This document shows, one piece after another, positions 5,650-41,960 of a DNA stretch of 50,453 nucleotides (positions are counted from its first letter, which is position 1; every line of letters begins with the position of its first letter). The stretch comes from Chitinispirillum alkaliphilum (GTDB lineage Bacteria; Fibrobacterota; Chitinivibrionia; Chitinivibrionales; Chitinispirillaceae): positions 1 through 50,453 of the forward strand of contig LDWW01000027.1 of NCBI GenBank assembly GCA_001045525.1, written 5' to 3'. The notes below the pieces were generated by a model. It searched no databases. It was not told where the DNA came from and worked only from the letters and a program-made list of their open reading frames with translations. Position numbers and translations under genes: made by a program.

Positions 5650-6290
5650 TGGGGTTCCTCCTATCTACACTTGGTTTGTTTTTATTTGATTTCCCCATTT
5701 ATAATATAGCGTATAATTATTGAAAATGGGGGAAAAATATCCTATGCTGATGGCCACATGCAATTATAAGAAAAATGTAGAAAAAAATTGCAGTGCAGTC
5801 TATACCGTTTTCAGTCAAAACATGCTCTAAAAAAGAGGAACGTGAATCATAAAAAGAAATAGACAATGTTTTATGATGAAACAGATAAGCAGCAGGTGGG
5901 GATTATAGTGTTTTTGCAGAATTTCTACTTCTGCACACAAAGAGAGGTTTCATTAGTTTTTGCCTTAAATTTCTCAGAGAGTACAAACAGACTAACCATA
6001 GCACCATGGGGCATGTGATGATTCAATTCATTCTATGTGCGAACCTCGTAGTCTTTCATCCCTCAGGAACCGTTACTTTTACCCGTGCTGGGTTTAATCC
6101 ATACCCGCCCAAAGAAAGGACGTATCAAACTTATCTGACCACAATTTATAGTGATCACCCATGAAAAAACCGGATGCGGCAAATATATAGAAATAGTAAT
6201 AGCAAATGAACCAAGCAGAATTGCCTTAAAATTACCAAGCAGGGCAAAACAGAGGAATAAGACCTGATAATTATTTTTTTGTTACCGGCA
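5650..6290. other. gene-free interval upstream of the deacetylase
   Basis: About 640 bases without a supported gene. The left part is AT-rich and has TATA-like stretches near 5701-5716 that could hold the deacetylase promoter, but no convincing -35/-10 pair can be fixed. The right part has short broken frames with coding-like composition on the minus strand, possibly eroded DNA from the decayed T6SS cassette next to it. Nothing in it could be assigned to a family. Confidence 0.5.
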
Positions 6291-6370
6291 GCAATCTCAC
6301 CCTTACCTTTGGTCTTGTTGGATGAAACTCTCCCCCACCCGTGGTCATTTGAAATTTGAGTTTTGGGCTT
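6291..6370 (-). pseudogene. remnant of a second PAAR-like (DUF4150) gene
   Basis: The stretch closely matches the intact DUF4150 gene at about 8155-8245. Both share a 17-base block CTTTGGTCTTGTTGGAT, then AACTC, CCCCCACC, and the TTTGAAATTTGA block. The remnant lacks about 20 bases in the middle and carries indels that break the frame. It lies on the same strand, just downstream of the immunity gene. This is where a further PAAR-toxin-immunity cassette would be expected. I read it as the scar of a lost effector cassette or of a partial duplication. Confidence 0.75.
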
Positions 6371-6423
6371 TTTAGCGCCTAACCAAAATTAACTCAAGCA
6401 AAACAAATTCTCTGATGAGCAAC

Positions 6424-7059
6424 TCAGTATCCAAGTTCCGGGTCTGGAACATAGGAATAAGGACAACGAAATTCAGAGCCGTAATTTTTAAGTTTCTCGT
6501 AGCCAGCTCCACCCAAAGCGTATTCGTATGCTATTTTAAAAACCAATTCTTCCTCAATAATCCAGTCTACTTTTCTTTCACCCAGCCGAAAGAGCTTTTT
6601 ACCCTCCGGTATTTTTGATTGGTCAAGTACACATCTACAAAAACGTCTAACCTGTGTTTCTTCCATAGGGCACCAGTCAAAATCACTCCTTTTCACATCC
6701 AGGCAGTGTACAAGATCAAGCAGATTGGCAAACCAGTATGTTTCCGGTACAATACGCTTTCTGTGATCTCTGATTTTCAGGGGAAGAAACTCAAATGTTG
6801 CACCACTCTCTTTTTCAAGAACCTCTTTAAATGCCGTGTTCACAACCTTCAAACCGTTTGCATTGGGAACGAATGCTCCGACCAGTTTTCCCTTCTGAGG
6901 ATCCAGGTCCCAAATAACTTCTTCCTGTAAAGGATATATATCCTTTACAGGGTAACCTCTGTGAATCTTGTACCAGATTTTTTTTATCGGTTCAGGTTCA
7001 TTGATATCTAACCAGGCATACTTTTCTCTTGAACTTGTGCCCCATAAATAGTATTCCAT
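6424..7059 (-). CDS. Imm11-type (DUF1629-like) immunity protein
   Basis: 211 residues. The pattern matches the Imm11/DUF1629 group found beside polymorphic and T6SS toxins. It has a mid-region FKEVLEKESGATFEFLPLKIRDHRKR, then an ETYWFANLLDLVHCLD strand-helix region and a C-terminal Phe/Tyr-rich part. No signal peptide or membrane segment is seen, as fits a cytoplasmic antitoxin. It starts 12 bases after the stop of the nuclease-like gene. The ATG at 7059 is preferred over GTG codons at 7062 and 7065 because an AGGGTAGG site precedes it at good distance. By position it should neutralise the AHH-type protein, and this pairing is an inference. Confidence 0.75.
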   Translation of the reverse strand: MEYYLWGTSSREKYAWLDINEPEPIKKIWYKIHRGYPVKDIYPLQEEVIWDLDPQKGKLVGAFVPNANGLKVVNTAFKEVLEKESGATFEFLPLKIRDHRKRIVPETYWFANLLDLVHCLDVKRSDFDWCPMEETQVRRFCRCVLDQSKIPEGKKLFRLGERKVDWIIEEELVFKIAYEYALGGAGYEKLKNYGSEFRCPYSYVPDPELGY

Positions 7060-36781: not shown

Positions 36782-37238
36782 TCTGCTGCTCCCTTACCAA
36801 TCAGATTATCTAAAAACTCAAAATATATCTGTTTAGATGATAGTATAACATTAATTCATTGAGGTGTCCAAAAAATATTATTTCTCAACCGGAAAACCAG
36901 GAGTGCTTTTAGTTGAAAACAAACCTTAATAGTCAGATATAATTTTCCACGCAAATCACAATCTGCATTCACCTCTTTTTTAATCACCCCCCAAATTTAC
37001 CCACTATCTTATTCTATTCAATATATATCCCCATTAAACTTGTAATATCTTACTGAAAGCACGTATTTTCTCTGAACACTACAGGCTCGCAGCAAAAAAG
37101 AGCGGGACCTGAAAAAGCTGAAAAAAAATGAGAGGAGAATTCAGCCCACAGATGTTGTGCCGACACTCCTTACCCAATAGAGATTATTCATTTTCAGCAT
37201 CGGATCATACTCCTGAGTAAGTGAAAGAATATTCTACC
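36782..37238. other. intergenic region between cpoB and the LptF-LptG gene
   Basis: About 450 bases, AT-rich, with divergent genes on both sides. No clear promoter pair, terminator or RNA motif is visible. Possible starts of the LptFG gene fall at its right end. Confidence 0.35.
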
Positions 37239-39794
37239 ATGCTTCTTTACAGATATATCATCAAGGAACTCCTTTTCCCATTTTTTGCCTCACTGAGTGT
37301 AATAGTATTTCTGTTTATAATGCAGCAGGCAGTTCAGCTTCTTGATCGTGTGATAGAAAAAGGACTGGACCCCATAGTTGTGCTTGAAGTTTTTATGATC
37401 CAGCTTGGATGGATCATAGCACTTGCTGTACCGATGGCGATACTTACTGCCACCCTTATGACTTTTGGACGAATGTCCGGTGATAACGAAATCACAGCCA
37501 TAAAAGCTTCCGGAAGAAGCATGTTTTCTCTTCTTGTACCGGCCTTCAGTGCAGCCCTCGTGATAACGGTGGCCCTCACCTTCTTTCACGATCTGATTCT
37601 GCCGGAAGCAAACCACCGGGCTGCCAATCTTCTTTCTGACATATCAAGAAAACAGCCAGCAGTACTCATCGAACCACGGGTACTTATAACGGATTTTGAT
37701 AACTATACACTATACACCCACGATATTGACCCATTTACCGGAGATATGTCCGGGATTCGTATCCTTACCGATATCCCCGGGCAGGATCCCACGGTTACCG
37801 TTGCAGCCAAAGGTAATATACGAAGCACAGGAGATGAAAAATTTCTGGTCCTAACTCTTCTTGACGGGGAAATACACAGCTACCCCAGAGACAACACAAA
37901 AGAATATTATCGGGGCCGCTTTGAAGAGCAGATTTTTTACCTTGAAAACATTGACAGCAGATTATTGCGCACAAGCTCAAATCACCGCAGTGACAGGGAG
38001 AAGAACATTGCGATGATGCTCTCAGACATCTCTGAGTTTGAACGATCGAAAGAAACAGCCCTTGCAGAGTTTAATCAGTTTATCGGAAAAATTAAAAATC
38101 AGGTCAATGAACTGGATTCAATCTCAACTGCAGTTAACCCCCAATCCCCCCAGGCTGAGAATTTCGAAAAATGGGCTGAGGGGGTGAGAGTAAATCCGGC
38201 ACTGATAAACACAACGAATCGCAGCAAAAACATGGTGGAAAGAACCGCCAGAAGAGTACACTCCAACAACCTGATGATCGCCCAATACAAGGTCGAAGTA
38301 CACAAGAAATTTGCTATACCGATCGCCTGTCTGCTTTTTGTTCTCATAGGGGCTCCCCTGGGTATTATGGCACGGCGGGGTGGACTTGCTGTTGGAGCGA
38401 GCTACAGTGTTTTCTTTTTTATCGCTTACTGGGGTTTTCTTATCACCGGTGAATCGATGGCAGACAAGCTAATTGTTTCACCCGCGTTTGGTATGTGGTA
38501 TGGCAATGCCATAATTGCGATTTTCGGGCTGATTTTAACCATACTCATGATGCGGGAAACTTCTATACGATTTGATTTCATAAAACAATTATTCCAGACA
38601 TCTGTAGTGCGAAGTAACCGTGTGGTAAAATGGATTTCCGGTCTTTACATAATCAAAATTCCGGGTTTACTCCTGCGCCTGCCAAGAAGAGTTGTCAACT
38701 GGTTTCTGGGAATACTTCCGGTTTATCTGATCAGCATGTTTCTAAAACTAAGCGCCGGTTTGCTCATAGCAATAATTGTAATATTCGTAGTGGTAGACTA
38801 CATAGGAAACCTAAGACGGTTTGAAAACGCCACCATAAACGAAGCCATTCTTTACTACTGGTACTATCTGCCGTGGATCATTCAGACCATCCTGCCGGTT
38901 GTGCTTCTTCTTGCCGCAATGTTTTCAATGGGAAAACTGGCCAAAAACAGCGAACTTACTGCCATGAGGGCATCGGGAATAAGTGTTAGAAGGTTAACTT
39001 TGCCACTGCTTGTATTGGGCCTGCTGTTATCCGCGCTGACCTTTTTTGGCGGAGAGTATATCCTGCCCAGAGCAAACGAGCAGAGAACCGAGCTGATGAC
39101 TATAATGAGACACCCCCCATCACAGCGTCAGGAAGCAGTAAACAGACGGGAATACAGACGCAATTTTTACTATTTTGGCAATCCAAATACCATGTATTAC
39201 TTTGAGGAGTTCAGCACAGAACCTCAATTTGCCAGAAAAGTGCAGCGGCAGATATTCAGAAATGATGGTATAGCCGAACGAATCGATGCAGCGGAAATGA
39301 TTTACGATAAACACAATGGATGGAAATTCATCGATGGGCAAAAACGTACCTTTGATGAGGATCAATCTGCATTAGTGACATTTCAAAGTTTTTATGATAC
39401 AATCCTCACAGCAGCTCCTTCTGAAATGACTCAAAGAGTAAGATCGGAAAGGGAGCTAAGCTACTGGGAGCTGAGAAATTATATCGATATGGCTAAACGC
39501 AGAGGTGAGCAGGTACACCGGCTTGTGGCGGAGATGGAGTTCAAAATAGCTCTTCCACTCATGAATTTTGTAGTGATCCTGCTGGGAATAGCAATTACAG
39601 CCCGCATGGGCAGAAAAGGTGGACCGGTTCTTTTCGGTATTGGCCTTGGACTAACATTCTCATACTATCTGATCTCGCAAATAGCCATTGTTTTTGCTCA
39701 AAACGGTCACATATCTCCACTTACAGGAGCGTGGATCGGAAATGTTTTTTTCTTTACCATTGGAATTATTCTCTACAGGAAGGCTGCGAACTGA
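37239..39794 (+). CDS. LptF-LptG fusion, LPS export permease
   Basis: 851 residues carrying two YjgP/YjgQ units in one chain. Unit 1 (about 1-455) has three N-terminal helices, then LPEANHRAANLLSD, a jelly-roll region, and C-terminal helices with IGAPLGIMARRGGLAVG. Unit 2 (about 485-851) repeats this with FSMGKLAKNSELTAMRASGIS, YILPRANEQRTEL, a second jelly-roll, and LLGIAITARMGRKGG. In most diderms LptF and LptG are two proteins forming the transmembrane pair of the LptB2FG ABC transporter. Here a single polypeptide could supply both. An in-frame GTG at 37221 adds six residues and cannot be excluded. It is followed three bases later by a response regulator. Confidence 0.88.
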   Translation: MLLYRYIIKELLFPFFASLSVIVFLFIMQQAVQLLDRVIEKGLDPIVVLEVFMIQLGWIIALAVPMAILTATLMTFGRMSGDNEITAIKASGRSMFSLLVPAFSAALVITVALTFFHDLILPEANHRAANLLSDISRKQPAVLIEPRVLITDFDNYTLYTHDIDPFTGDMSGIRILTDIPGQDPTVTVAAKGNIRSTGDEKFLVLTLLDGEIHSYPRDNTKEYYRGRFEEQIFYLENIDSRLLRTSSNHRSDREKNIAMMLSDISEFERSKETALAEFNQFIGKIKNQVNELDSISTAVNPQSPQAENFEKWAEGVRVNPALINTTNRSKNMVERTARRVHSNNLMIAQYKVEVHKKFAIPIACLLFVLIGAPLGIMARRGGLAVGASYSVFFFIAYWGFLITGESMADKLIVSPAFGMWYGNAIIAIFGLILTILMMRETSIRFDFIKQLFQTSVVRSNRVVKWISGLYIIKIPGLLLRLPRRVVNWFLGILPVYLISMFLKLSAGLLIAIIVIFVVVDYIGNLRRFENATINEAILYYWYYLPWIIQTILPVVLLLAAMFSMGKLAKNSELTAMRASGISVRRLTLPLLVLGLLLSALTFFGGEYILPRANEQRTELMTIMRHPPSQRQEAVNRREYRRNFYYFGNPNTMYYFEEFSTEPQFARKVQRQIFRNDGIAERIDAAEMIYDKHNGWKFIDGQKRTFDEDQSALVTFQSFYDTILTAAPSEMTQRVRSERELSYWELRNYIDMAKRRGEQVHRLVAEMEFKIALPLMNFVVILLGIAITARMGRKGGPVLFGIGLGLTFSYYLISQIAIVFAQNGHISPLTGAWIGNVFFFTIGIILYRKAAN

Positions 39795-39797
39795 TTT

Positions 39798-40193
39798 ATG
39801 CTACCTAAAGTCTTAATTATCGATGACAACCACGACCCTCTTGACATACTTGAACTACTGCTTTATAAAGATTTTGACGTTTGTACTGCCATGAACGGCT
39901 TTGAAGGTCTGAAAAAAGCCGAAGAGGAAAAACCAGACCTTATAATTACCGATATTATGATGCCGATCATGGATGGTATCAGGCTATTCAACAAATTAAA
40001 AAAATCTCCCGATTGCCATTCCACACCGGTTATTGCCATAACCTCATTCAAGGGAAGTATTACAAACAAAAGCCTTCTTAATATGGGTTTCAAGGGTGTA
40101 GTTTCAAAACCCTTGGACAAAAAGGAGATTCATGAGGTAATTCACAAAGTTCTCGATGAAACCAAACAGAATGAATTTCAAACGGTCCGATAA
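39798..40193 (+). CDS. single-domain response regulator (CheY-like)
   Basis: 131 residues. The receiver fold has LIIDDNHDPLDIL (acidic pair), ITDIMMPIMDG (phospho-acceptor Asp near residue 54), VIAITSF (Thr/Ser switch), and VVSKPLDKKE (Lys). No output domain is present. It lies 3 bases after the LptFG gene and 1 base before the membrane ORF of the GGDEF gene, so it probably belongs to one operon and signals to it. No histidine kinase is in the window. Confidence 0.9.
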   Translation: MLPKVLIIDDNHDPLDILELLLYKDFDVCTAMNGFEGLKKAEEEKPDLIITDIMMPIMDGIRLFNKLKKSPDCHSTPVIAITSFKGSITNKSLLNMGFKGVVSKPLDKKEIHEVIHKVLDETKQNEFQTVR

Positions 40194-40194
40194 T

Positions 40195-40410
40195 ATGAAA
40201 ATTTTTAAGAAATACTCATCCTTTCTTCCCTATCTGCTGCTTTTTTCCTTACTGCTGCTGTTTTGGAATGAGACATCCAGAGTGGTGTCAGCACTTTTGA
40301 TCGCAGCTTCATTTATCATCTCGCTCTGCCTTAGCTATTCCCCTGGTTCACAACAAAAAAAGAAAACAGAAATCACAAAAGTACCGAAACAGAAAACAAT
40401 GGTCTTGTAA
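40195..40410 (+). CDS. N-terminal membrane-anchor part of the GAF-GGDEF protein (frame 0)
   Basis: A 71-residue ORF from MKIFKKYSS with two hydrophobic segments (about 8-22 and 26-44) ending SLCLSYSPGSQQKKK. It ends at TAA 40410 in frame 0. The downstream GAF-GAF-GGDEF reading is in the -1 frame, open from 40335. The two frames join at A AAA AAG (40356-40362). With a -1 shift the protein would be about 588 residues. Read alone it is a short two-helix protein with no family match. Confidence 0.6.
   Translation: MKIFKKYSSFLPYLLLFSLLLLFWNETSRVVSALLIAASFIISLCLSYSPGSQQKKKTEITKVPKQKTMVL
40356..40362 (+). other. A AAA AAG slippery heptamer (candidate -1 frameshift site)
   Basis: In the zero frame the codons are CAA AAA AAG, so the heptamer A AAA AAG has the exact X XXY YYZ phase of the E. 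coli dnaX site. After slippage the next codon is GAA at 40362 and the frame runs uninterrupted into the GAF-GGDEF part. No upstream Shine-Dalgarno and only a weak downstream hairpin are visible. Transcriptional slippage on the A7 run, or a one-base indel, would give the same result. Confidence 0.55.
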
Positions 40411-40538
40411 CACTGGCTTCAGAAAATGTCTCCAGGGATACCACCACAGTTAAAAACAGTGTTCTTGGAAGTCAGTATATATCACAGAAAAGAAAACAGA
40501 CCGAATTAACCATTGATAAAATACTCGACCACTTTATT

Positions 40539-41960
40539 ATGCTGATTAACAGCAAAATCCACTCACACACGATCGCAGTACTCTTCCCCACAAATGACCA
40601 GGGGTTTATGCTTCGACGCTACCACTCTAAATGTAACAGCATAAATAGAGATGCTGTAATTTATCCTGGTGTGGGTGTCCTTGGAACATTTTTTAAGGAG
40701 GGACTTAAGCCCTTAAACCTCAGCGATATCCCCAATAACAGCATCACTCTCTACTATTATACCAAGGATGTAGGTGTACGTTCTCTGATGGCAAGTCCAA
40801 TCACCGCTGATGGTGTAGAGCGTGGTGTGGTGATTGTGGATCATGAGAATAAAAACCACTTTACTGACGAAGATCATGCATTTCTAAACACTGCTGCAGC
40901 ACTCCTTGGACAATCTGTTTTCAATATGTATAAGTACAATGAACACAGACTTGAGCACAGAAGATTCCTCGCTGCAAACGAAATCGAACAACATCTCTTT
41001 TCACATAATCAGATTGATCAGATACTTGATGAATTGACAGAAATTATCCCCTACTCCATTTCCTGCGACCGTCTTACTATCAGTATAAGGGATGAAAACA
41101 ATTCCGGTCAGGCAATCATTGTAAGAGCTGCAGGGTTGAACAGCGAAGATTTGACAGGTAAAACATTTAGTCTCGAACGTAAAACGATTGCCAGTATACT
41201 GTATGCAAAAAATCTCTCCTTTTATCGTGATTTTGCAAAAGATCACCACGAAAAACGCTACTTTGAAAACGAGCCAAAATGCGACAACCTTGTCTCTTTT
41301 CTGGCTATGCCCTTTGGGGTTACAGAATGTAAGGGGATGATTTTAATTGAATCACGCAAACACAACGCTTTTGGTAAATCAAAACACGACCTTCTTTGCC
41401 GCCTTGCGACAAGCGCCGGAATAGCTATCGAACGACACCTCACCCTCGAAAAAACAAAAGCTCTTGCAACCCACGACGGCCTTACCGGCTTATATAACCA
41501 CAGACAATTCCAAAGTACATTAACTGATTTCACCCTGCGTTCAACCAGATACAACGACCCTGTTGTGCTCGTGCTGTGTGACATAGATTACTTCAAGAAA
41601 ATAAATGACACCTACGGCCACCCTTTCGGCGACACGGTACTCAAGGGTATAGCAGCTAAACTCGAAAGCAGTATTCGGGAAGGGGTAGACATTGCCGCAC
41701 GGTATGGAGGAGAGGAATTTGCGCTGATACTGTACAAAACAGATCATAAAAGCGCTGTAGATACCACCGAAAGAATCCGAAACAAGATCTCCGGTGAGAG
41801 TTTCAATGCCCCGGGCGGAGAGAAGGTTCAAATCACTATGAGCTTTGGACTGGCAGAATACGGCAAACACGCCAAACAGGTTGACGAATTGATAAAAAAA
41901 GCAGACAAAGCACTGTACAGAGCAAAGGAAAATGGCAGAAACAGAATAGAGGTTTTTTAA
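40539..41960 (+). CDS. GAF-GAF-GGDEF diguanylate cyclase (-1 frame part)
   Basis: 473 residues if begun at the ATG at 40539. The frame is open back to 40335, and the helix at ELTIDKILDHFIMLINSK lies partly upstream of this ATG, so the real protein probably starts earlier through a frameshift from 40195. GAF 1 covers about residues 1-145 (SLMASPITADGVERGVVIVD), and GAF 2 about 150-310 (LVSFLAMPFGVTECKGMILIES). The GGDEF domain follows (ATHDGLTGLYNHRQFQ, DIDYFKKINDTYGHPFGD, ARYGGEEFALIL, KADKALYRAKENGRN). The GGEEF active site is intact. The usual RxxD inhibitory site before it reads EGVD, so feedback by c-di-GMP may be lost. It follows the response regulator. Confidence 0.85.
   Translation: MLINSKIHSHTIAVLFPTNDQGFMLRRYHSKCNSINRDAVIYPGVGVLGTFFKEGLKPLNLSDIPNNSITLYYYTKDVGVRSLMASPITADGVERGVVIVDHENKNHFTDEDHAFLNTAAALLGQSVFNMYKYNEHRLEHRRFLAANEIEQHLFSHNQIDQILDELTEIIPYSISCDRLTISIRDENNSGQAIIVRAAGLNSEDLTGKTFSLERKTIASILYAKNLSFYRDFAKDHHEKRYFENEPKCDNLVSFLAMPFGVTECKGMILIESRKHNAFGKSKHDLLCRLATSAGIAIERHLTLEKTKALATHDGLTGLYNHRQFQSTLTDFTLRSTRYNDPVVLVLCDIDYFKKINDTYGHPFGDTVLKGIAAKLESSIREGVDIAARYGGEEFALILYKTDHKSAVDTTERIRNKISGESFNAPGGEKVQITMSFGLAEYGKHAKQVDELIKKADKALYRAKENGRNRIEVF

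Follow-up and report, generated by a model that had tools for sequence, protein, structure and literature searches.

The GAF-GAF-GGDEF gene that appears split over two frames in Chitinispirillum alkaliphilum would be a membrane-anchored diguanylate cyclase gene of the ordinary type, whose single frame of ~588 codons looks split through the loss of one base at an A-run in its lysine-rich linker. The break is probably a one-base homopolymer undercall, and the base would have been lost in what is apparently a 454-only assembly of strain ACht6-1. Since all relatives inspected are unsplit and the genome was apparently read on a platform known for homopolymer miscounts, it is very probable that the break is either an artefact or a private mutation, and not a programmed frameshift. 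The base was most likely lost at a run of seven As (A7; Table 1), within a possible range of about 40335–40410, and we infer both this placement in the A-run and an origin by error instead of mutation. This reading removes a false recoding candidate, and it shows the need to check how an assembly was sequenced, and on which platform, before homopolymer-phased breaks are counted as biology.

In the window (the whole 50,453-nucleotide stretch of DNA that was analysed), the frame-0 anchor ORF and the −1 frame carrying the linker and the GAF-GAF-GGDEF part overlap by 76 bases, and translation reproduced both frames as the first-pass annotation had drawn them, together with the zero-frame A_AAA_AAG heptamer that it had placed within the overlap. 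A7 is the sole run of at least six As inside this overlap, and the frame-0 codons around it read CAA CAA AAA AAG. The residues that follow the run at the end of the anchor ORF are out of frame; in relatives, the matching anchor and linker are in frame with the cyclase. The earliest ATG, GTG or TTG in the −1 frame is the ATG at 40539, which had been proposed to fall inside the first GAF domain, and the GAF_2 match does start at ~40512 (residue 60), ~9 residues ahead of this codon, which is therefore not the natural start. With all of its domains preserved in a −1 frame of 541 open codons, the gene gives no further sign of decay. A GGEEF motif is present in the translation at 41706–41720, in agreement with the GG[DE]EF motif required of a GGDEF-family diguanylate cyclase. 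The residues encoded at window 41679–41720 (+) are REGVDIAARYGGEEF, in which the RxxD inhibitory-site motif is apparently missing at its usual spacing. Judged by these domains, the enzyme is predicted to synthesise c-di-GMP at the membrane, probably when its GAF domains sense a ligand.

Table 1 Features of the split cyclase gene, its upstream neighbour and other homopolymer-associated loci of the same genome (positions refer to the window unless a locus is named).
Feature	Position	Strand	Basis or remark
Response-regulator receiver gene, directly upstream	39798–40193	+	PF00072, 88.2 bits
Hydrophobic membrane anchor ORF, frame 0, 71 aa	40195–40410	+	Translation; ATG 40195 to stop at 40410
Linker and GAF-GAF-GGDEF, −1 frame, 541 aa	40335–41960	+	Open frame; 66% identity to the congener's protein
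A-run of seven As; A_AAA_AAG at 40356–40362 in zero-frame phase	40355–40361	+	
First GAF domain	40512–40913	+	PF13185 GAF_2, residues 60–193 of −1 frame
Second GAF domain	41013–41435	+	PF13492 GAF_3, residues 227–367 of −1 frame
GGDEF (diguanylate cyclase) domain	41466–41945	+	PF00990, 162.8 bits (cut-off 23.8); TIGR00254, 179.8 bits (cut-off 37.4)
Polysaccharide-deacetylase-like secreted protein (414 codons) and C-terminal FlgD_ig / T9SS-tail-like part (86 codons)	L126 17087–18558	+	Different frames, overlap at A9
TonB_C-domain protein split over two frames	L162 84–1366	−	G10 in frame overlap
dnaX of the window's genome, A11 tract	L112 1373–1383, contig 11	−	Run length from a draft that is apparently 454-only

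Orthologues were sought in 61 genomes of the phylum Fibrobacterota, and the close orthologues proved to be single open frames. Twenty-eight orthologous loci from the same genus, family and order were read individually, each with at least 115 in-frame codons upstream of the matched region that span the hydrophobic anchor and the linker. Anchor, linker and GAF were uninterrupted in all 28, and a split frame was found in none; a conserved slippery site or A_AAA_AAG heptamer was likewise sought in these loci and not found. The joint conservation of heptamer and split frame that is expected of dnaX-type frameshifting, and that the first-pass annotation had proposed as a check, was thus absent from the 28 loci. 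The same annotation had named eight As, in raw reads or throughout the close relatives, and the unbroken frame that they would give as the outcome that would speak against a biological break; the frame is indeed uninterrupted in every relative inspected, but through differing linker sequences and not through A8.

The only congener, Chitinispirillum sp. CSBr16_98 (SKJJ01000091.1), encodes an unsplit protein of 589 aa and lacks any run of at least six As across the matching anchor/linker stretch, while the window's frames with one extra base would give ~588 residues. The −1-frame linker upstream of ATG 40539 aligns with that of the congener (LGSQYISQKRKQTELTIDKILDHF versus LGSQYIRRKWQESEGVIDEILDQF). 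With the congener's full protein as query, 32 of 40 class genomes searched yielded the gene, and its frame was full-length on every contig that spans it, a single stop in some rows being taken as terminal. The window's gene resembles the membrane-anchored GAF-GAF-GGDEF cyclases of Chitinispirillum and its class relatives in the Fibrobacterota in its domains, in its joined length and in its position downstream of LptFG and a response regulator; theirs are unbroken, whereas the window's linker is short by one base. The suggestion that the sequence upstream of ATG 40539 belongs to the protein is upheld by the in-frame anchor and linker of the 28 loci, and on the strength of these loci the anchor forms one protein with the GAF-GAF-GGDEF part. 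A search of viral contigs for another copy of the locus, using an exact 20-base flank, returned none.

In E. coli dnaX, both products of frameshifting at A_AAA_AAG are made, and the cyclase locus resembles it in carrying the same heptamer in matching phase. A comparable recoding of the cyclase, in which a full cyclase would arise beside the bare anchor through −1 slippage of the ribosome on A_AAA_AAG or slippage of transcription on the A-run, be it programmed or the chance rescue of a real indel, is nonetheless highly improbable. The heptamer has the X_XXZ_ZZN form in zero-frame phase within a two-frame overlap, the frame downstream is intact, and A_AAA_AAG is of the efficient slippery class in E. 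coli when stimulated (PMC4066793). However, the cyclase locus differs from E. coli dnaX in having no SD-like or stem-loop stimulator and no conservation. No SD-like element was seen by eye upstream of A7, and no excess RNA structure was found downstream of it (z = 0.17 against shuffles), in keeping with the first-pass annotation, which had seen no SD-like stimulator and little downstream structure. Slippery motifs without stimulators shift weakly in E. coli, at no more than ~10 times a no-motif background of ~0.055% (PMC4066793). The motif is also common in the window's genome, where zero-frame A_AAA_AAG occurs in 96 of the 548 ORFs of at least 300 aa. The 8-mer AAAAAAAG has 15 occurrences in the window where 9.5 are expected, a count reached by 8 of 100 shuffles, and is not enriched genome-wide (1107 occurrences versus 1336 for the reversed pattern).

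For transcriptional slippage, a long A/T tract kept in position among orthologues would be expected; A7 is present in the window's genome alone. A large proportion of genomes shows evident selection against transcriptional slippage once a run reaches nine nucleotides (PMC1088944), and a title-level literature search gave no clear precedent for frameshifting in GGDEF genes. With single-frame relatives, an unconserved heptamer, no stimulator and an apparently 454-only draft, the earlier proposal that slippage produces both a bare anchor and a full cyclase is not sustained. In a further, very improbable reading, A7 would be real and low-level slippage at an unstimulated A_AAA_AAG would ration the membrane diguanylate cyclase, so that few rounds of translation produce it in this one species, which would amount to lineage-specific recoding in c-di-GMP signalling.

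The window's assembly comprises 4,434,773 bases in 160 contigs, and the GC content of the window is 42.3%. The published draft of C. alkaliphilum ACht6-1 likewise has 160 contigs, with ~4.43 Mb and a GC content of 42.9%; Roche GS FLX Titanium is the only sequencing in the methods of that paper, and the published read counts give a calculated read depth of ~42x (PMC4814513). We infer that the window's assembly is the ACht6-1 draft, and hence 454-only. Homopolymer miscounting is a known weakness of 454 chemistry, and the cyclase break resembles such errors in that one base is lost at an A-run of an otherwise intact gene in a draft that is apparently 454-only, and differs from them in no known respect. 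In a study of Buchnera, 454 artefacts were corrected with additional Illumina reads (PMC3164680). The earlier view of an indel as a serious alternative to slippage is upheld, and it is mainly the platform and the conservation, and not a demonstrated excess of errors, that lead us to favour an undercall.

The search for other breaks covered ~1.25 Mb in the window's genome and 0.78 Mb in the congener. Two further genes look split at homopolymers (A9 and G10; Table 1) within the ~1.25 Mb of assembly: the A9 split is likely another homopolymer break in the assembly, and the G10 split is either a homopolymer error or a phase-variable tract. Because no other clean one-step break was found outside the window when genes were paired with those of the congener (187 testable pairs), and because homopolymer-phased frame changes occurred at similar rates in the two genomes, homopolymer errors are not rampant. 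Of two frame-break methods, the first missed the window gene and is thus too insensitive for weakly conserved N-termini, while the second recovered it. Several candidates were set aside: hemL/ahbAB is a neighbour pair and not a split gene, a candidate in L170 consists of two unrelated adjacent genes, and others were judged by eye to be over-extended or shadow ORFs. In addition, a remnant of a CapA-like gene, so named from the appearance of the congener's protein, lies at about 6200–6900 (+) of L171; it has an internal deletion and altered frames, is intact in the congener, and is by the look of it a real pseudogene.

A real one-base frameshift private to the strain, probably arising by replication slippage at the A-run, ranks second as the source of the cyclase break but is unlikely. 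Its outcome would be a recent pseudogene, or an anchor fragment together with a cyclase fragment that starts at ATG 40539 and is poorly expressed; a conserved cyclase would then have been lost or rationed in a single lineage, which would be rare. In Buchnera, young pseudogenes often result from single homopolymer frameshifts (PMC3164680); the cyclase break occurs in the window's genome only, and the decayed CapA-like remnant points to real gene loss in the same genome; however, the cyclase is widely retained in the class, carries no second lesion, and comes from a genome that is apparently a 454-only draft. It is also extremely unlikely that the locus is phase-variable, with replication slippage altering the length of the A-run and so switching the membrane cyclase on and off in the population. 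A contingency tract might in principle be formed by a homopolymer within a coding linker, but the run here is short and is missing from the congener.

Slippage at poly-A in dnaX is known from other bacteria, and the dnaX genes of the class provide a contrast to the cyclase. A tract of A8–A12 lies near residue 392–434 in 26 of the 30 dnaX loci of the class; besides that of the window's genome (Table 1), the loci concerned are L228–L247, L249–L252 and L255. Frame 0 terminates soon after the tract in nine of these genes, and the tau C-terminus was located in another frame in four of the nine, a pattern that suggests transcriptional slippage yielding gamma and tau. Antonov et al. 2013 described dnaX genes of the two-ORF kind in which poly-A tracts, mostly of nine or ten As (ten in nine genes; nine, eight and seven in three others), recur across genera (PMC3711429). 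As in these genes, where transcriptional slippage is of the Thermus thermophilus type, the cyclase ORFs overlap at an A-run, but the cyclase run has seven As and occurs in a single genome. By this comparison a retained slippage tract is long and fixed in position, as in the dnaX of the class, and the cyclase A7 is neither. The longer, position-conserved tracts of the clade's dnaX thus also count against recoding of the cyclase, and the class-wide dnaX tract is a better place to seek real slippage in this clade.

The cyclase gene lies close to its upstream neighbour, the response-regulator stop preceding the anchor ATG by one base, and the gene order LptFG, response regulator, cyclase is shared by the congener and by four further relatives that were checked. 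Within this cluster, LptF and LptG are apparently fused in the window, where a single ORF of 857 aa at 37221–39794 (+) has two LptF_LptG matches, and an equally long LptF_LptG match is present in two relatives.
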